NCBI GenBank assembly: GCA_029260135.1 | Contig: JAJDDV010000081.1 | Coordinates: 1 to 64,000 of the forward strand | From: Phycisphaerae bacterium | Lineage (GTDB): Bacteria > Planctomycetota > Phycisphaerae > UBA1845 | Length of the DNA: 64,000 nt | Direction of reading: 5' to 3' | Part shown: positions 15,011 to 39,719 of the stretch, piece after piece | Numbering within the stretch: position 1 is the first letter of the stretch | Layout: each line of letters starts with the position of its first letter | Translations under genes and position numbers: made by a program | Notes under the pieces: model-generated | Told to the model about the DNA's origin: nothing | The model's input: the letters and a program-made list of their open reading frames with translations, nothing else | Databases searched by the model: none

Positions 15011-17092
15011 GTGTTTACGACATCGATGATCGAATCGTGCCGGCGATATCGGTTGTCGGATCGAGCGGCGGGGCGTTGGAGCCATAGCGTGGATTGGAAA
15101 AGCCAGTATCAGTCGAGTGAGCACGCGCAGTTCTACGCGGACAAGCGCGACGCGACGTTCATGCGGCGCATGTCGAATCGATCCGAGCAGCGAATGATCT
15201 ATCGCGCGCTGGAACGGCTGCACCGGAAGGCTGCGTTTTCGACGGTGCTGGACTGCGCGTCGGGCACGGGGCGGATGTTGCCGGTGCTGGCGAAGTTCGA
15301 CGTTTCGGTGGTTGCGCTGGACTCCGCGGCGGCGATGCTGATGGAAGGTCGCCGCGTTCACCATCTGTTCGGCGCGGCGCCGGGGATGGTGGTGGGTTCG
15401 GCGCTGGAGCTTCCGCTGGCGGACAAGTGCGTGGATGTGGTGTTCTGCTCTCGGTTGCTGCACCACTTCGAAGACTCGGCGTCGCGCATTCAGATTCTGC
15501 GAGAGTTCGCGAGGATCGCGCGGGTCGGTGTTGTGGTTTCGTTTTTCGACTCGCTGTCGTATCGGGGGTGGCGGCGAGCGAAGAAGAACCGCAAGCGACA
15601 TCGGGAGCACGGGCGGTTTGCGGTTCGCCGTGATACGTTTCGGCAGGAGGGCGAGGCGGCGGGGCTCGATCTGCTGGGGATGAATGCGCTGTTTCGGTTT
15701 CATGCGGAAGTGACGGCAGCCACGTTTCTTGTGGGGCAAAAGAATGCTGCTCACCGATTGAAGACCGGTGCCACACGGGAATCTCCTCACCGGCTGGAAA
15801 ACGGTACCACACAGTGCGGTGCTGATCGGTTGGAAGCCGCGGTTGCACAACAGGCGAGCGGCGGTTCGTGCGCCGAGTGGTTGAAGGCGTCGGGGCTGGG
15901 ATCGGTGCAGGGGTTGATGGACTTCCGTCCGACGAGTGTGGCTGCGCAGTCGGCGTCGTCGGATACGTTTCGCGTGGAATGCGCCGGTGCGGCGGAGGGA
16001 GAATCGGCGCGAGAGATCTACGTCAAGCGGTATCGCTATGGGGGTATTGGACGTCAACTCGGCGGGGCGTTTCGTGGGACGCTGCTGGGGAAGAGCCGCG
16101 CGCGGCTGGAGTTTGAACGGCTCACTGAGATGCGGCGCCGCGGTGTTCCTGCGGTGGCACCGATCTCGTACGTTGAGGATCGGCGGTGGCGGTTGCTTCG
16201 CTCTTGCGCGCTGGTGACGGAGGGTGAGCCGAACGCTGAACCGTTGAGTACGTACTTTTCGCGTCGGGAAGTCGAGTGGGATCTGCCTACGCGACGCCGA
16301 TTCGTTGTGGCGATCGGCGGGAGCATTGCGGGCCTGCACGAAGCGGGCGTTCTGCACGGTGGGCTATTCTGGCGGAACATATTGGTCCGCGAAGTCGAGG
16401 GGGAAGACGGGTGGCGGTTTACGTACCTCGATCCGAGTCGGGGGTGTCGGTTCTATTCGGGTGCGGCTCCGCTGAGTGCCCGAGTCTCCGATCTTTCGGA
16501 CTTTGCGGCTTCGGGGAATACCGCGGCGTGGCGGACGGACTTCGCTCGGTTTCTGCGGAGTTATTGTGGGGTGCGCTCAACGCGAGAGCAGCGGAAGTCG
16601 CTGGCGCGGGCGATCTTGGAGGCGGCGCGCGGTAAGGTTGCGGGAGAGGGAAATCGGATTGGGACGGGTGCGGCGCTGGCGTGGCTGGAGCGGCGTGTGG
16701 AGCGTAGGGCTGCACCTGGTGGGGCGGATCGCTTTGAAACCGTCGAGGCCTTTTTCGAGATGCTGGGGCGGGCACGTCCGCGGTCGGCAGCGCTGGGGCC
16801 GTGGAAGGTTCGTTTTGAATTGGGCCTCAACGACGACGTGGGCGGCGCACGTACGTTCACGGTTTCGATGGGGCGTGACGGTATCGTCGTCGACGAGGAA
16901 CGGGGTGGTCGGGCTGACCTGACCGTGCGAACGGACGCCGAGGCCTGGTTGGCCATTGTGAATGCCGATGGCGAAGCGCTGGATATGATTCGCACAGGCC
17001 GGTTCGCCCTTGACGGTGACACGCAGCCGTTGGCTGTTCTCGTGCAGTGTCTTGACGAGTCTCTTGTGGCGACGTTGAGCGACGCCCGATAA
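15011..17092 (+). CDS. Multidomain protein: SAM methyltransferase, WaaP/LPS-kinase-like domain, SCP2-like domain
   Basis: VLDCASGTGRMLPVLAKFDVSVVALDSA...VVFCSRLLHHFED; IYVKRYRYGG...LHEAGVLHGGLFWRNILV...YLDPSRG; C-terminal GRADLTVRTDAEAWLAIVNADGEALDMIRTGRFALDGDTQPLAVL. Confidence 0.75.
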   Translation: MFTTSMIESCRRYRLSDRAAGRWSHSVDWKSQYQSSEHAQFYADKRDATFMRRMSNRSEQRMIYRALERLHRKAAFSTVLDCASGTGRMLPVLAKFDVSVVALDSAAAMLMEGRRVHHLFGAAPGMVVGSALELPLADKCVDVVFCSRLLHHFEDSASRIQILREFARIARVGVVVSFFDSLSYRGWRRAKKNRKRHREHGRFAVRRDTFRQEGEAAGLDLLGMNALFRFHAEVTAATFLVGQKNAAHRLKTGATRESPHRLENGTTQCGADRLEAAVAQQASGGSCAEWLKASGLGSVQGLMDFRPTSVAAQSASSDTFRVECAGAAEGESAREIYVKRYRYGGIGRQLGGAFRGTLLGKSRARLEFERLTEMRRRGVPAVAPISYVEDRRWRLLRSCALVTEGEPNAEPLSTYFSRREVEWDLPTRRRFVVAIGGSIAGLHEAGVLHGGLFWRNILVREVEGEDGWRFTYLDPSRGCRFYSGAAPLSARVSDLSDFAASGNTAAWRTDFARFLRSYCGVRSTREQRKSLARAILEAARGKVAGEGNRIGTGAALAWLERRVERRAAPGGADRFETVEAFFEMLGRARPRSAALGPWKVRFELGLNDDVGGARTFTVSMGRDGIVVDEERGGRADLTVRTDAEAWLAIVNADGEALDMIRTGRFALDGDTQPLAVLVQCLDESLVATLSDAR
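15751..15858 (+). repeat. Three tandem 36-bp degenerate family-C REP units inside the CDS
   Basis: Unit starts TCACCG (15751), TCACCG (15787), TGATCG (15823), exact 36-bp spacing; encodes HRLKTGATRESP / HRLENGTTQCGA / DRLEAAVAQQAS. Confidence 0.75.
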
Positions 17093-19501: not shown

Positions 19502-20311
19502 CTATTGTGCCTGCGGCGGTTCGCGCAGGGACTGATCGTGGAGATCGGCGACAAACATGTGGCCTGGTTCGTGGGTGACCGCGAGGGCGAGTTCGGCGCG
19601 GATGATGGCTTCCATCGGCGTGACGCCGCAGGCCCAGAAGACGGGGATTTCATCGGGGTGGATGGTTACGGCGTCGCCGTAGTCCGGGAGGGAGAGGTCG
19701 ACGATGCCGATGGCGGCGGGATCACCGATGTGCATGGGATCCCCGTGAACGCGCGGATACTCGGCGGTGATGCGCGCAGCCTCGCCCGCGTGTGCGGGGG
19801 TCATGGGTCTCATGGATACGACGAGTGGCGCCGTGAATCGGCCGGCGGATCGACACTCGATGTTGGTTCGATACATGGGGACGTTTCGGTTTTCGTCGAT
19901 GTGCCGGACGGGGAGCCCTGCTCGCAGAAGTGCGGACTCGAACGTGAACGAACAGCCGATGAGGAATGCAACCGAGTCGTCCGTCCAGAACGGTTCGATG
20001 GATGCTGTGCGCTCGGTGCACTGGCCTTGTCGATAGACGCGGTAGCGGGGGAGGTCAGCTCGCACGTCGCCGCACGGTGCGATGCTTCGGGTCTCGTAGT
20101 CGCCGGGTGATGTCACTTCCAGAAGCGGACAGGGTTTGGGATTGAGTCGACAGAAGGTGCGGAATTCCTCGGCGGTGTCGGCGGTCAGAACAACCAGGTT
20201 GGCCTGCACGAAGCCTCTTGCGACGCCGGCGGTTGGGCCGGTGAACTCACCGCTACGACAGAGTGCTCGAAACTGTCGCCCTGTCATGGCGGCGCGGTCT
20301 TGTTGGCTCAC
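19502..20311 (-). CDS. DUF1445/UPF0317 family (putative hydro-lyase / D-glutamate cyclase type)
   Basis: RSGEFTGPTAGVARGFVQANLVVLTADTAEEFRTFCRLNPKPCPLLEV...DVRADLPRYRVYRQG...FWTDDSVAFLIGCSFTFESALL...MRPM; GTGA start/stop overlap with the upstream gene. Confidence 0.85.
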   Translation of the reverse strand: MSQQDRAAMTGRQFRALCRSGEFTGPTAGVARGFVQANLVVLTADTAEEFRTFCRLNPKPCPLLEVTSPGDYETRSIAPCGDVRADLPRYRVYRQGQCTERTASIEPFWTDDSVAFLIGCSFTFESALLRAGLPVRHIDENRNVPMYRTNIECRSAGRFTAPLVVSMRPMTPAHAGEAARITAEYPRVHGDPMHIGDPAAIGIVDLSLPDYGDAVTIHPDEIPVFWACGVTPMEAIIRAELALAVTHEPGHMFVADLHDQSLREPPQAQ

Positions 20312-22092
20312 GAGCTGCCCCTTGACAAGGGTGACGCTGCGATGGCCGACGAAATGGCGTCGCTGCTGAGCCCGTAGAGTCTGGCCGCGAGGACGGCAGA
20401 GAGAAGGGTTTCGGCGAAGGGAGGCTGCACGGGGCCGAGTCGCTCGACCTTTCCGGCGATGTTGAGATGGAGTCGTCCTTCGGCGAGCCAGGCTCCGCGA
20501 TCAACGGCTTGGCGAGAGGAGACGAACAAGGTTCGCCCCTGGTGTTTGCGTGCGAGTGTTCTTAGTCGCGGGTCGTCATAGGGGAGGATCAAGACGTCGT
20601 CGGGGCGTTGGTTCATGAAGATGCGGCTTTTGACGCGTACATATTCCGCGATGGAACGGTGTCGATCGAGATGTTCATCGTCGATGTTGAGCAGGATGGC
20701 GACGTGCGGACGAAAGTGAACGACGGTTTCCAACTGGAAGCTCGAGACGGCCAGCCCGATCGGGTCTGACCCGGTTTGCTGGAGTAGCAGGTCGCAGAGC
20801 GGCCGGCCACGATTTCCTCCGATGGTCAGCGATCGACCGGCGGCGCGGAAGAGTCGTTCGAGGAGTTCGACGGTGGACCGTTTTCCGATCGTACCTGTGA
20901 CCGCGATGAGCGACGCTTCAGGGATCGCATCTTTGTCGGCGCTGAGCTGAAAAGCGAGTTCGAGCTCACTCATGACGTAGATGCCGCGGCGGTGGAGGTC
21001 GTCGACGATGGGGCTGTCGACGCGAACGCCGGGGCTTGCGACGACGAGGTCGCAGGGGTCGAAGAACTCGATGGTATGCCCGCCGGATTCGACGCCGTCG
21101 GCGACCATCCCGGGCTGGAGGGTGACGGGCTGCTGGTCGGAGATTCTGACGCGGTGTCCGTGTTGTCTCAGAAAAGCGGCGGCGGCGTTTCCCGCTTCAC
21201 CGTATCCGAGCACTCCAACGAGAAGCGGTTCACTTCGTTCGATGGGTGAGGGTGCAATGTGTCGACGGATCTGCTCGAGCATGCGAACGACGGCGGTTTG
21301 GTCCTGTCCGTCGCAGGTGGGTTCGGCGCGAAAGGTCACGCCATCGACGGCTCCGCCTCTCTCGACGAGTTGGTGGAGGTCTTTCAGGATCGAATTCGCG
21401 GATGGGAGGAGGTCTCTGTTTTCAAGGACGGAGAGGGCACCAGCGAGTCCGAAGGCTCCCCAGTTGGAGACGCCCGCCACGATGCAGAAGTCGGTCGGGA
21501 CGACGCAGCGCGCGGCGAGCTTGAGGTTTTGCGGCGCGTGCCTCGGATCGGTATCGACGGTCTCGGCGCTGGCGAAGACTTTGCCCATGCCGATTTCGTT
21601 TCCTCCGTCGCCCACGCCAATGGTGGTGAGGCCGCGGAGTGCGGCATCGAGGAAGAGCTGATCGAGCGGTGCGGTAACGTGGGTGATGTCGTCGCCGTGC
21701 ATGTTTCGGTAGCGGCCGTCGGGTCCGCGCCCGACCCGTTCTATGGAGACGAGGTGGGTGGGTCTTGCTGCATCGAGATAGGCGTCGTTGTCGACGACGG
21801 GCTCAACGCCCAGCGCTTGGAACAGCGGCGCATTGGGCTCGTCGGTCAGGTAATCCACTTCAACGCCAAGGCGCTGGAGCGCTTGGCCAAGGACTTTGGC
21901 GCCGGGCGGACCATCCGTTTCACCTGCGCCTGCACGGGCGATGAAGAAACCGCTGACGATGCCGACGCGCCTGGCGAGCCGAAGCGACTGTGCGGCAAGG
22001 CGAAGCTGATCGGGCAGTGCGAGCGCGAAGACGTTTCGGCCGCCGGGGTCGGTTGCGATGAGGTTTTCAATCGATGTGATTCGTGGATTCAT
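20308..22092 (-). CDS. Fusion: DUF4392 (D-glutamate cyclase-like) N-terminus and MurD-like Mur ligase module lacking the C-terminal domain
   Basis: N-terminus ETDGPPGAKVLGQAL...ERVGRGPDGRYRNMHGDDITHVTAPLDQLFLDAA...GVGDGGNEIGMG...VAGVSNWGAFGLAGALS. C-terminal half VLGYGEAGNAAAAFLRQHG...VASPGV...VTGTIGKRSTVELLERLF...SSFQLETVVHFRPHVAILLNIDDEHLDRHRSIAEY, ending at ISSAIAASPLSRGSS. Confidence 0.85.
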   Translation of the reverse strand: MNPRITSIENLIATDPGGRNVFALALPDQLRLAAQSLRLARRVGIVSGFFIARAGAGETDGPPGAKVLGQALQRLGVEVDYLTDEPNAPLFQALGVEPVVDNDAYLDAARPTHLVSIERVGRGPDGRYRNMHGDDITHVTAPLDQLFLDAALRGLTTIGVGDGGNEIGMGKVFASAETVDTDPRHAPQNLKLAARCVVPTDFCIVAGVSNWGAFGLAGALSVLENRDLLPSANSILKDLHQLVERGGAVDGVTFRAEPTCDGQDQTAVVRMLEQIRRHIAPSPIERSEPLLVGVLGYGEAGNAAAAFLRQHGHRVRISDQQPVTLQPGMVADGVESGGHTIEFFDPCDLVVASPGVRVDSPIVDDLHRRGIYVMSELELAFQLSADKDAIPEASLIAVTGTIGKRSTVELLERLFRAAGRSLTIGGNRGRPLCDLLLQQTGSDPIGLAVSSFQLETVVHFRPHVAILLNIDDEHLDRHRSIAEYVRVKSRIFMNQRPDDVLILPYDDPRLRTLARKHQGRTLFVSSRQAVDRGAWLAEGRLHLNIAGKVERLGPVQPPFAETLLSAVLAARLYGLSSDAISSAIAASPLSRGSS

Positions 22093-22098
22093 GGCAAG

Positions 22099-25000
22099 TC
22101 AGTCTGTCTTCACCGGCTTCTTACCCCAACCCCCACCGCCGGGTGTTTCAATGGTGAGTCGATCACCGGTGCGCGCCGTCAGTTGTGCGATGGAGGGTAG
22201 CTCCTCTTGTTGTTGAGCGCCGCGCCGCCGCAGGTGATTGCGTCCGGGCTTTCCAGCCTGACCTCCGTGCCGTCCGTAAGGTCTGGTCGTTCGCCGCTGG
22301 CTGAGCATGGACACTTCGAGCGTATCGAGGAACTCGATTTCGCGAATCACACCGCATCCGCCGGAGAAGGTTCCGGATCCACCCGACTGCTGCCGAATCG
22401 CGAAGCGGATCAGGCGGACGGGCACGCGCGATTCGAGGACCTCTGGATCGGTCAATCGCGTGTTGGTCATGTGCGTGTGAACGGCATCTGTACCGTGGAA
22501 CGAAGGGCCTGCACCGGATCCGCCGCAAATCGTCTCGTAGTAACCGAATTGATCGTTTCCCATCAGCAGATTGTTCATCGTGCCCTGGCTTGCTGCGACA
22601 GTACCAAGTGCTCCGAAGATAGCATCGACAATTCGCTGGGATGTCTCCACGTTGCCGCCGACCACGGCGGCACATAGCTCAGCGTCAGCGGCGGATGGTG
22701 GATTTAGGAAGCACTCGGGAAGCCGGAGTTCGATCGGTGCGAGGACGCCGGCGTTGAGTGGGATGTCTTCATCGATGAGGCAACGAAGGCAATAGAGTGT
22801 TGCGCTGGTCACGATGGCACGGTTGGCGTTGAGGTTACCTGCGAGCACGGGGCCGGTTCCTGCAAAGTCGAACGTAGCGCGATCACCCGCGATGGTGATC
22901 GCAAGACGAATGGGCGAGCCGTCGTCGAGCTGATCTTCGAACGGATAGGTGCCATCCGGTAGGTCGGCAAGTGCTTGGCGCATTTTTGATTCGGCGGCGG
23001 CCTGAAGATGGTTCATATAGCTGTGAACCACGTCGACGCCGTAACGGGCGATCATGGCGGTCAGCTCGCGCACGCCGGTTTGGTTGGCTGCGATCTGCGC
23101 GGCGACATCGGCGAGATTGTCGTCCGGCATTCGTGAGGGGTAGGGCGCCTCTATCAGAAGGCCTCTGAATCGCTCTTGTTGAGGTTTCCCCTCGGACATC
23201 CAAGGGAACGCGCGAATGAGCACGCCCTCTTCTGCCAGCGACGTAGAATCGGGCGGCATGGATCCCGGTCGCGTGCCACCGATCTCGGCGTGGTGGGCTC
23301 GGCTTGCGACGACAAAGAGAAGGCGCTCTCCGGATTCATCGTGAACGGGGGTCACGACCGTGATGTCGTTGAGGTGTGATCCACCGCGATAGGGGTCGTT
23401 GGTGATGTAGACATCGCCAGGTGCAAAGCCCGAGACATCCTGCATGAGCATTCTGACGCACTCGCTCATTCCGCCGAGATGGACAGGGATGTGCGGCGCG
23501 TTGACGACCAGGTCGCCGGTGGGTGTGAAGATGGCGCAGGAGAAGTCGAGTCGTTCCTTGACGTTCACGGAAAGGGCGGTCCGGCGCAGCGTGGTTCCCA
23601 TCTGCTCGGCGGCTGCGGCGAACTGGTTGGTGAAGAGCTCGAGCTGGACCGGGTCGGCGATGGTCGAAACCGTCTCGTGCGCCGGAAGCGCCTTCCGGTC
23701 GGTCATGAGGATGTCACCGCTTGCGGTCACGAAGGCTTCCCAGCCGGTCTCGACAACGATCGTGCTCGTATCCTCGATGACGACGGCGGGGCCGTCGATT
23801 CGGCGTCCGGGTGCGAGGTCGCCGCGGAGAACAATCGGAACGGAAACTCGACGACTGTCGGCGACCATTTTGGTGGTGCGCTCCGTGGCGACTGCCGCAG
23901 ATTTCTCCATCCTGCATTCACTTTCGGCGACTGTCGCATCAACATGGTCGGACCGAGCGGTCTGCTCGACGCGCACGACGCGGACCTCGATCGGGCGCCC
24001 GCCGTGGACGTAACCATAGAGTTGCCGATGCAGTTCCTCGAAGCGCTCTTGCGTTTGCTCGAAGGGCTGGGCGTCGACCGTGATGAAGGTCGACTGGTCT
24101 TTGTAGCAGAGGTCGATGGTTCGGGCTGGTGGACGCAAATGATCGGGATTCACTTTCTCTTCGCGCATGGACCGGCGCAGGTCGCCGGTGATGGCGTCGA
24201 AGACCGGCTCGAGTGTTTGGGGAGCCCGGGCGTCCAGCGGAACGTTGACGCTTTGTTGTCCGATTCGCTTGATGTCGGCCACGCCGATGCCCAGCGCACT
24301 GAGAACGCCCGCCAAGGGGCTACAGAGCACACGCGATATTCCTAGCGTGCGCGCTATGGCACAGGCGTGCTGCGCGCCCGCACCGCCGAAAGACGTCAGT
24401 GCATAGTCTCGAACGTCGATACCACGAGCAAGCGAGATGCGCTTGACGGCGGCTGCCATCTTGGCGTTGGCGATCTTGACAAACCCTTCGGCAAGTTCGA
24501 CGGGTCCGAAGGCGGTCGGGGTGTCGACCTCTTGGCTGCGTGCCTCGTTGATCCGTGCGCTCAGCGAAACGAGTTGTTTCTCGACGGCGGGGAGGTCGAG
24601 CGGGAATGGGAAGAACTCCGGGACGAGTCGGCCGAGATAGAGATTCATATCGGTGACGGTGAGCGGCCCGCCACGACCGTAAGAGGCGGGTCCGGGATCC
24701 GCACCGGCGCTGTGGGGACCGACGGTGAGTTTTTGGCCATCAAACCCGCAGATGCTGCCGCCGCCTGCGGCGACCGTCTCCACGCCGAGCATGGGTGTCA
24801 TGATTCTGACACCGTCTTTGACCGTTTCGTATGTGTATTGGAAGGGATGAGGCGGCGGATCGATGCGCGAAACGTCGGTGCTGGTGCCGCCCATGTCGAA
24901 GGCGATGGTCTTTTCGAGACCGGCTTGCTGCGCGACATGCGCGCAGCCGACCACGCCGCCTGCGGGACCGCTGAGGATCGTGTCCTTCCCCGCTACGGCG

Positions 25001-25989
25001 TTGGCGTCGATGAGGCCACCGTTACTCGTCATCAGGTGCAGCTTCGCTTCGGCCATGGAGCGGCGGAGTCGTGAGACGTAGTCGCGCAGGATGGGGGCCA
25101 GATAGGCATCCACGACGGTTGTGTCGGCGCGTGGAACGATGCGCTGTATGCGGCAGATGCGAGAGGACACGGACAGGTGCTCGAATCCTGCGTCGACGGC
25201 ACGGGCGGCGATGAGCTCTTCGTGCCGAGGGTTTACGTGCGCGTGAAGCAGGCAGATCGCCAGCGTTTCGATGCCCGCGTCTTTGAGTACCGCGAGTTGC
25301 TCGCTTACCGTATCGAGGTCGGGTGGGCGGAGCACGTCGCCCGTCGCGGAGATGCGTTCGTCGATCTCGATGACGGTTTCGGTCAGCTCCGCTCGTTTTC
25401 GAATGTCGAGCTTGAAGAGGTGTGGGCGATCCTGGTAGCCGATCTTCAGGATGTCGGCGAAACCTTTGGTCGTGACCAATGCGACGCGCGCGCCTTTGCG
25501 CTCGAGCAGCGCATTGGTCGCTCGGGTGGTTCCGAGGCGTACCTCGACGGGGCCGATCGGATCGGTCAACCGAAGGCGCATCAAGCGGCGGATGGCCAGG
25601 ATCGGTGCCTCTTCTCCGCTGCGGAGTTCGTACGCGAGACTCGCAGGTGATGACCAGGCGGACGGTGCGGTCGAAACGCCATCGACAAACGTTCGTGGAT
25701 CAGTGAATGAGAAGGTGCCGGTCGTACCATCAAACGCGGCGATGTTCGAGACCAGTGGTGGTGCGTCGGGTGAAGTTGCGATCGATAGTCGGTAGCCGGT
25801 CCAGAAGTCGTCGGGGTCACCGATGCGACGGCGATCGCGAACGGTCAGGGTTGTCGAGCCGGCCTCGGCTACGCCCCGGACGACGCCGGAACTGAGGAGC
25901 TTGTGTGTGATGATGGTGCCGTCGGGCGTTCGCGCTACGGTATCGGTGAAGGTGCCGCCGACGTCGATGAAGAACTTCCAGGTCCGCAT
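22099..25989 (-). CDS. 5-oxoprolinase, HyuA-HyuB fused (hydantoinase/oxoprolinase family)
   Basis: 1296 aa; KFFIDVGGTFTDTVARTPDG...VRLGTTRATNALLERKGARVALVTTKGFADIL...FDMGGTSTDVSRID...; B-half LSVNVKERLDFSCAIFTPTGDLVVNAPHIPVHLGGM...NDPYRGGSHLNDITVVTPV...GGCGVIREIEF. Confidence 0.9.
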   Translation of the reverse strand: MRTWKFFIDVGGTFTDTVARTPDGTIITHKLLSSGVVRGVAEAGSTTLTVRDRRRIGDPDDFWTGYRLSIATSPDAPPLVSNIAAFDGTTGTFSFTDPRTFVDGVSTAPSAWSSPASLAYELRSGEEAPILAIRRLMRLRLTDPIGPVEVRLGTTRATNALLERKGARVALVTTKGFADILKIGYQDRPHLFKLDIRKRAELTETVIEIDERISATGDVLRPPDLDTVSEQLAVLKDAGIETLAICLLHAHVNPRHEELIAARAVDAGFEHLSVSSRICRIQRIVPRADTTVVDAYLAPILRDYVSRLRRSMAEAKLHLMTSNGGLIDANAVAGKDTILSGPAGGVVGCAHVAQQAGLEKTIAFDMGGTSTDVSRIDPPPHPFQYTYETVKDGVRIMTPMLGVETVAAGGGSICGFDGQKLTVGPHSAGADPGPASYGRGGPLTVTDMNLYLGRLVPEFFPFPLDLPAVEKQLVSLSARINEARSQEVDTPTAFGPVELAEGFVKIANAKMAAAVKRISLARGIDVRDYALTSFGGAGAQHACAIARTLGISRVLCSPLAGVLSALGIGVADIKRIGQQSVNVPLDARAPQTLEPVFDAITGDLRRSMREEKVNPDHLRPPARTIDLCYKDQSTFITVDAQPFEQTQERFEELHRQLYGYVHGGRPIEVRVVRVEQTARSDHVDATVAESECRMEKSAAVATERTTKMVADSRRVSVPIVLRGDLAPGRRIDGPAVVIEDTSTIVVETGWEAFVTASGDILMTDRKALPAHETVSTIADPVQLELFTNQFAAAAEQMGTTLRRTALSVNVKERLDFSCAIFTPTGDLVVNAPHIPVHLGGMSECVRMLMQDVSGFAPGDVYITNDPYRGGSHLNDITVVTPVHDESGERLLFVVASRAHHAEIGGTRPGSMPPDSTSLAEEGVLIRAFPWMSEGKPQQERFRGLLIEAPYPSRMPDDNLADVAAQIAANQTGVRELTAMIARYGVDVVHSYMNHLQAAAESKMRQALADLPDGTYPFEDQLDDGSPIRLAITIAGDRATFDFAGTGPVLAGNLNANRAIVTSATLYCLRCLIDEDIPLNAGVLAPIELRLPECFLNPPSAADAELCAAVVGGNVETSQRIVDAIFGALGTVAASQGTMNNLLMGNDQFGYYETICGGSGAGPSFHGTDAVHTHMTNTRLTDPEVLESRVPVRLIRFAIRQQSGGSGTFSGGCGVIREIEFLDTLEVSMLSQRRTTRPYGRHGGQAGKPGRNHLRRRGAQQQEELPSIAQLTARTGDRLTIETPGGGGWGKKPVKTD

Positions 25990-26041: not shown

Positions 26042-29000
26042 CTACTGCTTGCCGTGACACTGCTTGAATTTCTTCCCGCTTCCACAAGGGCAGGGATCGT
26101 TTCGACCGACCTTGGGTGTCTCGCGTCGAATGGTCTCGACTTTTCCGTCGGTGTTCTGCGCACGCATGGCGGCTTCCTCGTCTCGGCTGACGGCGGTGAA
26201 ACCCGCGCCGGTGGCATCCGCGTGTGATGTCGAAAGCGTTCTCTGTGTGGGCGTCTGGGGTGTATCCGAGCGGGCGGCGATCTTCACTTTGAAGACCACA
26301 TCGGTCACGCGTTCGGCGATTCTGGCCCACATCTGCGCGAACAGGTCGCGCCCTTCGATGGCGAACTGGCTTTGGGGGTGGGTCTGATCGCCGCCGAGCG
26401 GGCGCTGCATGATGGCGTTCTTGAGGTGGTCCATCTCGAGCAGGTGGTCTTTCCAGGCCTGGTCGTAGAGTCGCAGGAGTATGAACTGCTCGAGGCGGGT
26501 GAGTTCATAGCGCAGCATCTCGCGCCCCTGCGCGAAGATGGCCTCCTTGAACTCGTCGTCTGAGGGTCCCGCTCCGATCGCATGGTCGAAGCGATCCTGG
26601 TTCCATGCCCGGCCAAAGCGCTGCTTCGCCCATTCGACGGCCTTGTCGCGGTCGTGCCCGACGACGTGCTCATCGACTTCTCGCCCGAGGCAATGGTCGA
26701 AGAACTCCTCGCTCAGTTTGATCAGGGATTCGCGAATCTCTTCAATCGGTCTGCCCTGCACCTGATCGATGTCCCAGCCTGCGTCGTACTTTTCGTTGGT
26801 CCACTCGACGAGGCGATGGACGGCGGCGGCTTGGTCGGTTCCTTCGCCGCCGAAGCTCCAGTCGAGGCACCACTCGACGGGAAAAGTGATTTCGCGGAGT
26901 CGATAGGCTGCTTGAACGCGCTCGTGGATGAGTTCGCCGACATCGTCTTTGCCGACCTCGATGAGTTCGTCGGCGTCGAGCTTGATGTTGAATTTGACGC
27001 GTGCCCACTCGGCCATCGCGCGCTGGGGATGATGGCGTTCGAGGAAGACGCGAATGCCACCGAGGTCGACGCTGTCGTAGTGGGTCTTGGCGGCCTCGCA
27101 GAGTACGTCCTCGATCTCCTGGGGGTCCATTTTTCGCATCTGGTTTTGCGTCATGGAGACGCGGTACACTTTGCGGGCCCACTGGAGCAGTCCACCGACG
27201 TCCCATTTGTTCGAGGGTTCCTCGGGATCGATGTATTCCCCGATCGACGTGCGAATCTGGTCGAGCGCTTCGTCCTTGGCTCTTCTGCGGATGCTGTCCT
27301 GGGCCGAGTCGAGGTCTTCGTCGTTGATGCTATCTTCGGCGATGACCAGATCGAGTTGGGTGCGGCACCATTCGACGATGCACGTACGGTGGTAGGTGCC
27401 GCTCAGGTAGAGATCGACGGCGGCGGCGACGGCGTTATCGATGGTTCCAAAGATCAGGCCTGGGAGGTCGCGTTCTTCGAGAATGCGCTGCCGTGCGGCG
27501 TAGAACTCCTTGCGCTGGAAGTCCATCGGCTCGTCCCACTCGAGCAGGTGTTTTCGGGTCGAGAAGTTGCGCTCTTCGACCTTTCGCTGCGCGCGCTCGA
27601 TGCCTTTGGTGAGGCGTTTGTCCTCGAGACTGCTCCCTTCGGTGAAGCCCAGGCGCTCCATCATTTTGAGCATCCAGTCGGGCATGAAGAGCTTGAGGAG
27701 ATCGTCCTGCAGCGAGAGTGAGAAACGGGAGGACCCCGGATCGCCTTGTCGTCCGGCTCGGCCGCGGAGCTGGTTGTCGATGCGGCGTGCCTCGTGGCGT
27801 TCGGTGCCGATGATGTGCAATCCGCAGGGAACGCTGAGCGGGCAGACGCGGCGCCCCAGCTCGGGGAATCGCGGATCGAGCTTTGGCTTGAAGCAGTGCG
27901 CACAGTTAGTCGCGGCGTCGTAGTCATCACATCGAATACAGCACTTGGTGATGCCCGTCGGATAGAGGGGGCTGGACTGGACACCTTCGGGCAATGACTC
28001 GGGCACGCGGCAGGTGGCGAAGACCACGCCTTCGCCGAGCTTGATGTCGGTACCGCGGCCGGCCATGTTCGTGGCGATCGTGACGTTTCCGAGCGGGGCC
28101 TTGTCGCGACCTTTTTCAGGAATGGAGCAGTATCCGGCTTTGGCCACGATTTCGGCTTCGCGTGCGTGGTTCTTGGCGTTGAGGACTTCGTGATCGATGC
28201 CGTACTTCCGGGTAAGGAGCTTGGAGAGTTTCTCCGAGTTTTCGACGCTGGTGGTTCCGACGAGAACGGGTCGACCGCGCGCCAGGTCCGCCATGGCTTC
28301 GTCATAGGTCTCGAGCATGAATCGGATGACGTTTCGATCGCCCAGCTCGGCGCTGTTGAACTGGCGTATCGCTTCATCGATCTTGCTCGTGTCTTCGCCC
28401 AGTTTCGTCTTGACCGGCTTGAGCGAAGCGAGGACATCGGCCAGGACGAACGGGTCGGCGGTTCGACCGCGGCGACGGACTTCGTGAATCTCTTCGACGA
28501 TGGCATCGTACTTCTGTTCGGCGTCGCGATACATCTTGTCGTTGTGGTCGAGGCGATTAACGGGGCGGTTGGTGGGGATCTCGATAACGTCGAGTTTGTA
28601 GATCTTGTCGAATTCGTTCGCCTCGGTCAGTGCGGTACCGGTCATGCCGGCGCGGAGGAGATAGAGCTTGATGAAGTTCTGGATCGTGATCGTCGCGAGC
28701 GTTTGCGTTTCCTCCTTGACTTGGACGCGCTCCTTCGCTTCGCAGGCCTGGTGAAGGCCATCCGACCACTGTCGACCGTGCATGAGGCGACCAGTGAACG
28801 GATCGACGATGATGATCTGTCCGTCCTGCACGACGTAATCCTTGTCGCGCTGGTAGACCTTGTGCGCGCGGAGGGCGTTCTCGATCAGGTGAGGCCACTC
28901 CATGTTGGATCCGCTGTAAAGACTTCCGAGATCGAGCAGTTCCTGGGCGATGGTCACGCCTTCATGCGTGAGGGCGGCCTGTTTTCGTTCGGTCTGCACG

Positions 29001-30304
29001 ATGAAGTACCGCCGGTACTGTTCGGACGGCGGAACCTTGAGGAACTCGTTCTCGAAAACCTGGATGGCCTCGACCTGGTCATCGGTGAGGAAGTCGGGGC
29101 CGAGCGTGGCGGCGCCGCGTGCATCGACGGCCTCGGACTCGCTAGGCGCCGCATCGACAGGTTCGACGCCCGGCTCGTCGCCGGCGGATGGGTCCTTCCG
29201 CTCGCGGAATCCGAGAATGTTCATGGCGTCGAGCAGCTTGGGGATGTTTCTCGCGTTTCCATCGAAGCGATCGACGGTGTTTCGGACCTTTCGATCCCAC
29301 ACCGCCTGCCGCCGCACCAAGTCTTCGGCAACGCTGTTGGCTCGCGGGTAGCGCGTCACGTCATCATCCGCCGGGCCGGAAATGATGAGCGGTGTGCGGG
29401 CTTCGTCGATCAGGATGGAGTCGACCTCGTCGACGATGACGTAATCGAGCCTCCCCTGGACCTGTTCGGCGAGGTGGGACTTCATGTTGTCGCGGAGGTA
29501 GTCGAAGCCGAATTCGCTATTGGTGCCGTAGGTGATGTCGCAACCATAGGCGTGGTGGCGAATCCCCTCTCGTCCGCCGGGATCGACCATGGCCTGGATG
29601 TATCCGACGGAGGCGCCGAGGAGCGCGAAGATCGGTTCGGCGAACTGTGCGTCGCGCTGAACGAGGTAGTCGTTGACGGTGATGATGTGGACCTTTCGGC
29701 CACAGAGGAAGTTCACGAACGCGGCGAGGTGGCAGACGATCGTCTTTCCCTCTCCGGTCTTCATCTCTGCGATCGTGCCCTCGAACAGGACGCGTCCGCC
29801 GATCAACTGGCAATCGAAGTGGCGGTGGTTTTGCGCCCGGCGCGACGCCTCGCGCAGTAGTGCAAACGCCTCGGGAAGGACGCCCTCGCGATCGAGGTCC
29901 TCGGTCATCTTGGCGTTTCGCTTGCGATACTCACCGCGATAATGCTCTTCGAGGCGTTGCGGCGGTTCGAGCCCGTACCACCATTCGTGAAGGGGGTTCG
30001 CGATGTCGGCGGCGTGCTGCTTGAGCGTTCCAGCGCGTTCGAGCAGATCGCGGCCGAGTTCGAGGTGGAGGTCGCGAAGCGTGGATTCGCGTTGTTCTTC
30101 CGGGAGATCCTCGATGGGCTGATCGGCGAGACGTCGCTGGAGGCGATCGTCGTAGTCCCCGCGAAGGTCCTGCTCCAGGTTGTTGACCGGTGCGACTTGG
30201 CGCCGATAGCCCTTGAGCAATCGGTCGTTACGTGTGCCGAATATCTTTCGCGGCAGCCCTTTGACACTCCGGTAGGCGCCGGAAGCAACTTCAATCACGG
30301 ACAT
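26042..30304 (-). CDS. secA: Protein translocase ATPase SecA, unusually large (1420 aa)
   Basis: [108 protein letters not shown] tail [18 protein letters not shown]. Confidence 0.95.
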
Positions 30305-38115: not shown

Positions 38116-38369
38116 CGTGCTGACGACTCCAAAGTCCGGGTTTGCCTATCTCCTTATACCGACGAACCAAGCGACCGGTCAACCGAGCCGCCACCAAGGA
38201 TCGCCCCAGGTACTTCCGCCGCCCACCCTCCGGCCTCCGGCGTTAAGCATTGCCCGAACCGCATCGCCGGACCTAGAATGCGACTCGGCTCTCCGGCAGA
38301 TATCGACGCGACCGAAGTCGCGATGCCGTGACATGGTCCTTGCCCCCATACGACAACGCAGCCTGCCCG

Positions 38370-39719
38370 ATGTCCCCTGACGCAAAAGTGCCTGTGACCG
38401 GTCGAAACGTGCTCGTCGTGGGTCTGGGTCGCTTCGGCGGCGGGGTCGGCGTGACCCGATGGCTCGCCGCCGCCGGCGCATCCGTCACCGTAACGGACCA
38501 GGCCGACGCCGAGTCGCTGGCGGCATCGATCGATGCCGTGTCCGATGTCGATGTCACGCTCGAGCTGGGTGGGCATGATCTCCGCCTGCTCGATCACGCC
38601 GACCTCGTGGTCATCAATCCCGCTGTCGACAAACGACATTCTGAGCTATTTCAAACGATTCAACGCCGCGGCATCGAATGGACCACCGAGGCGAACCTCT
38701 TCTGCGAGCGATGCCCCGCCCCGGTCATCGCGGTCACGGGATCCTATGGTAAGAGCACGACAGCGGTCATGCTCGCCGGCGCGTTGGAACGCTGTCACCA
38801 GACAGCGGCCTACACCGGCGTATACCTCGGCGGCAATATCGGTCGATCGCTTCTCCCCGAGCTCGAGTCCATCGAGCCAACCGCCGTGGTCGTCATGGAA
38901 TTGTCCAGCGCGCAGCTCGAGGACATGCCTCGCATCAACTGGCATCCTTCGATCGCGGTCATCACGAGCCTGGCCCCGCACCATCTGGACCGATATGGCG
39001 CGTACGCCGACTACATCAACACCAAGCTCAACGTGCTCGGAACCGCGCCCGGTGCCCAGACCGTCATCGCCGGTCACCTCGAACCCGCGGCGGAACAGTT
39101 CCTTCAAGAACGCGCAGCCGATCGTGCGATTGCGCTCGTCCGCGCCGGGCAACCCCAGCCCCCCATCCAACTTCGCGTACCCGGTGCGCATAACCAAGCC
39201 AACGCCGACTGTGTGATGAGGGTCTGCCGACACCTGAACCTGGAGGAGTCGTCGGTTCGTGAGGCACTGGGCTCCTTCAGCGGCTTACCTCACCGCATGG
39301 AGCACGTACGCACACTCGACGGCGTCCGGTACTTTGACGACTCGAAATCCACGTCGCCCGCCAACACGATCACGGCCCTCGAATCCTGCGACGGCCCGGT
39401 TATCGCCATTGTCGGCGGACAGGACAAAAGCGAAGACCTCAGCGAGTGTGCAGTTGCACTGGCGCGGTCCTGTCGAACGATGATGACCGTCGGTGAATCG
39501 GGGCCGCGCTTGGCCGAATCCGTTCGGAGCCATTCTGTGAGGCACCCAGGCCTCGTGATTCAAGAGGCTGCCAGCGTGACGGCAGCTGTAAACCGAGTCC
39601 ATGAGATGGCAGCCCCCGGCGACATCGTTCTCCTCTCACCCGGTGCGCCGAGCTACGATGCTTACCCCAACTTCGTTGCGCGAGGGGAAGACTTCGCGCG
39701 CGCGGTTCGTGCGTTGTAG
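38370..39719 (+). CDS. murD: UDP-N-acetylmuramoylalanine--D-glutamate ligase (start uncertain)
   Basis: VLVVGLGRFGGGVGVTRWL; P-loop VTGSYGKSTTAVMLAGAL; LSSAQLEDM; ITSLAPHHLDRYGAYADYINTK; FSGLPHRMEHVRTLDGVRYFDDSKSTSPANTITAL. Confidence 0.93.
   Translation: MSPDAKVPVTGRNVLVVGLGRFGGGVGVTRWLAAAGASVTVTDQADAESLAASIDAVSDVDVTLELGGHDLRLLDHADLVVINPAVDKRHSELFQTIQRRGIEWTTEANLFCERCPAPVIAVTGSYGKSTTAVMLAGALERCHQTAAYTGVYLGGNIGRSLLPELESIEPTAVVVMELSSAQLEDMPRINWHPSIAVITSLAPHHLDRYGAYADYINTKLNVLGTAPGAQTVIAGHLEPAAEQFLQERAADRAIALVRAGQPQPPIQLRVPGAHNQANADCVMRVCRHLNLEESSVREALGSFSGLPHRMEHVRTLDGVRYFDDSKSTSPANTITALESCDGPVIAIVGGQDKSEDLSECAVALARSCRTMMTVGESGPRLAESVRSHSVRHPGLVIQEAASVTAAVNRVHEMAAPGDIVLLSPGAPSYDAYPNFVARGEDFARAVRAL

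Follow-up and report, generated by a model that had tools for sequence, protein, structure and literature searches.

D-Glutamate is of use to bacteria mainly for the wall, and what is known of how they keep it in balance concerns chiefly the supply side: the glutamate racemase MurI and its activation by UDP-N-acetylmuramoyl-L-alanine (UDP-MurNAc-L-Ala), an activation credited for the Escherichia coli enzyme to Ho et al. 1995, as cited in PMC6736417. In the MurD2/MurL pathway a MurD-like protein is likewise tied to glutamate handling other than by MurI. On the removal side, mammalian D-glutamate cyclase (DGLUCY) carries the two domain families DUF1445 and DUF4392 (DUF, domain of unknown function) in one chain (PMC5339696). 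Here we describe a gene that joins these themes, found in 64,000 nucleotides of contig JAJDDV010000081.1 (assembly GCA_029260135.1) from a Phycisphaerae bacterium, a stretch that we call the window. In this gene a D-glutamate-cyclase-like domain, PF14336 (formerly DUF4392), is fused to a MurD-like module, and the gene adjoins one encoding PF07286, the DUF1445 family.

The sequence marks the fused module as a degenerate MurD, one that lacks key catalytic residues and the third domain. We give about even credence to the reading that it has lost the ligase chemistry, has kept the UDP-MurNAc-L-Ala pocket, and acts as a regulatory domain over D-glutamate cyclisation.

A MurD-like module without its C-terminal domain

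The features of the fusion gene are as follows.

20308..22092, minus strand: fusion gene of PF14336 with MurD-like domains 1 and 2, 594 amino acids (aa), without a Mur C-terminal domain
21265..22071, minus strand: PF14336 domain, aa 8-276 (Pfam, E-value 3e-68)
20971..21219, minus strand: MurD-like_N domain (UDP-MurNAc side), aa 292-374 (Pfam)
20506..20901, minus strand: Mur_ligase_M (middle domain), aa 398-529 (Pfam)
20872..20898, minus strand: degenerate P-loop TGTIGKRST, aa 399-407, Arg replacing the Mg-ATP-contacting Ser/Thr
20749..20751, minus strand: Ala448, at the place of the MurD Mg ligand Glu157
20308..20311, minus strand: GTGA, a 4-nucleotide overlap of the fusion stop codon (TGA) and the start codon (GTG) of the PF07286 gene

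The fusion matches the TIGR01087 MurD profile only over positions 2-299 of 441, the match reaching aa 585 and scoring 196.5 bits, under the NCBIfam cut-off of 211.95, and the open reading frame (ORF) stops at the border between MurD domains 2 and 3. An AlphaFold model of the full-length protein gives matches to both MurD and TON_0340, the sole PF14336 protein of solved structure. When the Mur module is modelled alone (predicted local distance difference test, pLDDT, 90.1), its best match in the PDB is MurD 3lk7, with a template modelling (TM) score of 0.83 over the module; a third domain was sought in this model and none was found, the N-terminal and middle domains accounting for all of it. 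Profile and superposition thus bear out an initial annotation of the window, according to which a MurD-like module ends here before the C-terminal domain, and both motifs that it quoted, VLGYGEAG and TGTIGKRST, are present. Its fused D-glutamate-cyclase domain stands in part: the domain belongs to PF14336, which in cyclases of DGLUCY type forms the DUF4392 half, but the family named 'D-Glu_cyclase', PF07286, lies in the next gene.

Residues lost and kept

Nineteen fused modules were compared by alignment with 34 canonical MurDs, positions being given in E. coli MurD numbering without Met. S116 and E157, which serve Mg-ATP in MurD structures, are both replaced throughout: S116, Ser or Thr in all 34 MurDs, is Arg in 18 of the 19 fused modules and Ala in one, and E157, Glu in every MurD, has given way to Ala in 18 modules and to Thr in the other. 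The altered P-loop is accordingly family-wide, reading TG[ST][IVF]GKR in 18 of the 19 copies and TGSIGRAST in the exception (locus L072). N268 is lost as well, and the ATP and D-glutamate residues of the C-terminal domain (D317, K319, T321, K348, S415 and F422) are absent.

On the substrate side, S71, P72, G73 and N138 are kept in all 19 modules, the MurD-type motifs SPG (S71/G73) and GGN being invariant; H183, K198 and K115 are kept in 18, and R186 and R200 in 18-19. G73, N138 and H183 are among the MurD contacts for UDP-MurNAc-L-Ala (reviewed in PMC12844806), and the role of K198, a carbamylatable lysine, is described in PMC4816537. Set beside MurD, then, the fused module agrees with it in fold and sequence over domains 1 and 2 and shares the substrate-side SPG, GGN, H183 and K198, but differs in lacking the C-terminal domain, in scoring below the family cut-off, in the replacement of the GK[ST] serine or threonine and of E157, and in being joined to PF14336.

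The PF14336 domain shows no such decay. In TON_0340 six acids bind metal (E59, D61, E115, D157, E161 and D246); their aligned counterparts in the window protein, E58, D60, E118, D162, E166 and D261, are all invariant in a 14-row alignment of fusions, and with the Mur residues replaced this intact metal site places the catalytic degeneration in the Mur half only. TON_0340 (PDB 4FC5) is a stand-alone domain, unlike the fusion, but shares its PF14336 fold (TM 0.85, normalised to TON_0340). With PF14336 bearing the metal-binding acids and PF07286 in the same operon, the locus has the two domain families of DGLUCY-type cyclases, though with a MurD-like module between them.

Distribution and origin of the fusion

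The initial annotation had called for a survey of architectures, and the two-domain Mur fusion does recur, in bacteria of two phyla. The layout of PF14336 followed by N-terminal and middle domains, without the C-terminal domain, is present in 14 of the 51 sampled genomes from the window's Phycisphaerae family, in a planctomycete of a second family (genome G445, locus L072), and in four genomes (G755, G776, G814 and G999) from a sampling of the phylum to which a Thermodesulfobacteriota metagenome-assembled genome belongs; the first three of these are all the sampled genomes of their class. The module of G999 clusters in the tree with planctomycete modules, and its presence in that genome may reflect transfer or mis-binning. 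The other matches in the search of genome contigs were ORFs of canonical MurD type, their P-loop reading GK[ST] and their tail complete, and a search of plasmids for the fusion gave MurD-like matches only, most of those among the matches listed being annotated murD. One homologue, of 689 aa (L012:398-2464), has long low-complexity insertions within its Mur middle domain.

All fused Mur modules form one clade (support 100/99) that is not close to the MurD of the same genome, which indicates a single origin of the fused module. The module is thereby ruled out as a decayed form or recent duplicate of the MurD of its genome, and many independent fusions are unsupported for the Mur part. In 18 of the 19 copies the end of the module falls at about residue 287-306 of E. 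coli MurD; the remaining one (L100) aligns ambiguously beyond this point, again without a C-terminal domain. In two relatives, G024 and G359, the Mur module is absent and PF14336 is joined directly to PF07286 in one chain:

L014:1501-3120 (and L069), genomes G024 and G359: direct PF14336-PF07286 fusion

PF14336 comes first in these chains, opposite to the order implied for DGLUCY by the Pfam name 'C-terminal'. Two changes suffice on the PF14336 tree, where G024 and G359 are nested within fusion-bearing relatives, so the Mur module was lost in them.

A candidate sensor of UDP-MurNAc-L-Ala and its alternatives

The loss of the Mg/ATP half, the retention of the UDP-MurNAc-L-Ala half and the intact D-glutamate-cyclase-family domain are together best explained by a ligand-sensing pseudoenzyme. 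The Mur module would bind UDP-MurNAc-L-Ala, the D-glutamate acceptor of MurD, and so report the need of wall synthesis for D-glutamate, its bound or unbound state being relayed to the attached PF14336 domain and probably also to the PF07286 cyclase, which is translationally coupled to the fusion. At low precursor levels, D-glutamate in excess would be cyclised to 5-oxo-D-proline, which may be recycled by the 5-oxoprolinase-type protein encoded upstream; at high levels, cyclisation would be restrained. That a MurD pseudoenzyme sensing UDP-MurNAc-L-Ala allosterically controls D-glutamate catabolism in this way, in a feedback link between precursor level and D-glutamate removal, we propose more tentatively, at somewhat short of even chances. 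No such link was found in the papers searched; two of them mention DUF4392, and among the matches listed none describes a PF14336-Mur fusion. The nearest parallel, E. coli MurI, would share the proposed signal, a D-glutamate acceptor controlling a D-glutamate enzyme, but is an unrelated protein that makes D-glutamate, where the fusion system would remove it. MurD2 differs from the fused module in being a full active ligase, and its partner MurL is described as without known conserved domains. If the proposal is true, a conserved pseudo-MurD is a demand sensor on the removal side, recycled from the enzyme that consumes the same pair of substrates; the fusion also offers an experimental handle on PF14336, whose function in bacteria is unsettled.

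Among the roles suggested in the initial annotation, a sensor of UDP-MurNAc-L-Ala fits best, the substrate-side residues being retained, whereas an ATP-dependent partner is unlikely given the loss of the P-loop Ser/Thr and of the second Mg residue, and sensing of D-glutamate by the Mur module is unlikely since the D-glutamate site belongs to the absent domain. Several observations weigh against a sensor. L072 is without K115, H183 and K198, and a full UDP-MurNAc-L-Ala pocket in it is doubtful. The fused modules do not retain L15 and R37, which contact uracil in E. coli MurD, though MurDs also vary at these positions. The module is dispensable in G024 and G359. Three loci of the Thermodesulfobacteriota phylum adjoin a glycerate 2-kinase-type gene (DUF4147/MOFRL), not 5-oxoprolinase or PF07286, and PF07286 was looked for and not found in G755 and G999. 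Finally, TON_0340 has been shown just as a weak Mn-dependent phosphatase (PMC5132392).

Other explanations can be set beside this one. The Mur module could be a protein-protein scaffold that keeps PF14336 in contact with PF07286 (or with the cell's MurD), its pocket a fossil; the direct fusion in two relatives is what a holding role would lead one to expect, L072 has lost most of the catalytic half of the pocket, and the mammalian enzyme has both domains in one chain. Yet S71, G73, N138, H183, K198, R186 and R200 are kept in 18-19 of the 19 copies while the catalytic residues have changed, and the module is retained in four genomes of the family in which PF07286 is not adjacent to the fusion but lies elsewhere in the genome; we consider a scaffold unlikely, if worth keeping in mind. 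Clearly improbable, in our judgement, is a module that presents a UDP-MurNAc-linked substrate, with PF14336 and PF07286 acting on nucleotide-bound glutamate or an acyl-phosphate, for example in a MurL-like epimerase or editing role. A nucleotide-level glutamate epimerase does exist elsewhere (MurL, PMC8788868), the metal site of PF14336 is of phosphatase type, and MurI and the fusion operon never occur together in the family: MurI scores above its cut-off in none of the 17 operon genomes (counting G024, G359 and the contig-edge G026) and in 11 of the 34 others (Fisher p 0.009, ancestry not corrected). However, MurI and the operon are both absent from 23 of the 51 genomes, and aminotransferases resembling D-amino-acid transaminase are near-universal (50 of 51, all below the cut-off of that family), so the operon need not supply D-glutamate; we do not conclude that it is a D-glutamate source or a replacement for MurI. 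PF14336 is moreover described with a small active-site cavity (PMC5132392), and the amine of D-glutamate is blocked in muropeptides, which makes cyclisation impossible there.

Binding by the module of some other nucleotide or sugar-nucleotide, with no relation to peptidoglycan, would agree with the unconserved uracil contacts and with contexts that vary by phylum, one including the glycerate 2-kinase-type neighbour, but the MurD match outranks every other Mur ligase and the SPG and GGN motifs are of MurD type, and we think this decidedly improbable. A module that is still a ligase or kinase, its C-terminal domain coming from another protein, or an ATP-hydrolysing motor, seems to us very improbable indeed: K115 and K198 are kept in 18 of 19 copies and MurC fragments of the same two domains fold alone (PDB chains of ~300 aa), but every copy has substitutions at both residues of the Mg/ATP site, N268 is missing, the ATP residues R302, D317 and K319 belong to the absent domain, L072 has lost K115 too, and no stand-alone gene for a Mur C-terminal domain was seen in the neighbourhoods examined. 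The chance that the fusion is an artefact, a three-domain MurD cut short or misassembled, is negligible, with nothing beyond the unusual end to recommend it; 18 of 19 copies, from many independent assemblies in two phyla, share that end, and the junction with the next gene is conserved. The two-domain end of all 19 distinct copies rules out frameshift or assembly error. The initial annotation had argued against a simple frameshift from the overlap of stop and start codons, an overlap that we confirm as GTGA.

Gene neighbourhood

The reading of the fused module as a sensor draws on the genes around it, which are listed here with those of the second phylum and with the canonical MurD used for comparison.

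19502..20311, minus strand: PF07286 D-glutamate cyclase (DUF1445, putative hydro-lyase NF003969), 269 aa, downstream of the fusion
22099..25989, minus strand: fused hydantoinase A + B protein (5-oxoprolinase type), 1296 aa, 6 nucleotides upstream of the fusion
38328..39719, plus strand: canonical full-length MurD with three domains, not closely related to the fused module
L032:2550-3986, L114:7866-9317 and L115:8775-10244, second phylum: glycerate 2-kinase-type gene (DUF4147 + MOFRL), next to or near the fusion

In the upstream gene PF05378, PF01968 and PF02538 all score above cut-off, giving hydantoinase A and B domains; 5-oxoproline as its substrate is putative. The order 5-oxoprolinase, fusion, PF07286 is kept in most family members with enough flank, the junction between the last two being tight among relatives as well, and PF07286 is present in 7 of 7 tested fusion genomes of the family as against 0 of 3 without the fusion. 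The canonical MurD had been placed at 38370-39719; it is indeed full-length, with a C-terminal domain, but its ORF is longer than that.

In the second-phylum loci a carboxymuconolactone-decarboxylase-like gene lies on the other side of the fusion. A SecA of unusual length (1420 aa, window 26042-30304, minus strand) is encoded upstream of the 5-oxoprolinase gene, as it also is in L023, L026 and L028. On the plus strand, at 15011-17092, a single ORF combines a methyltransferase domain with a Kdo/WaaP-type lipopolysaccharide kinase domain.
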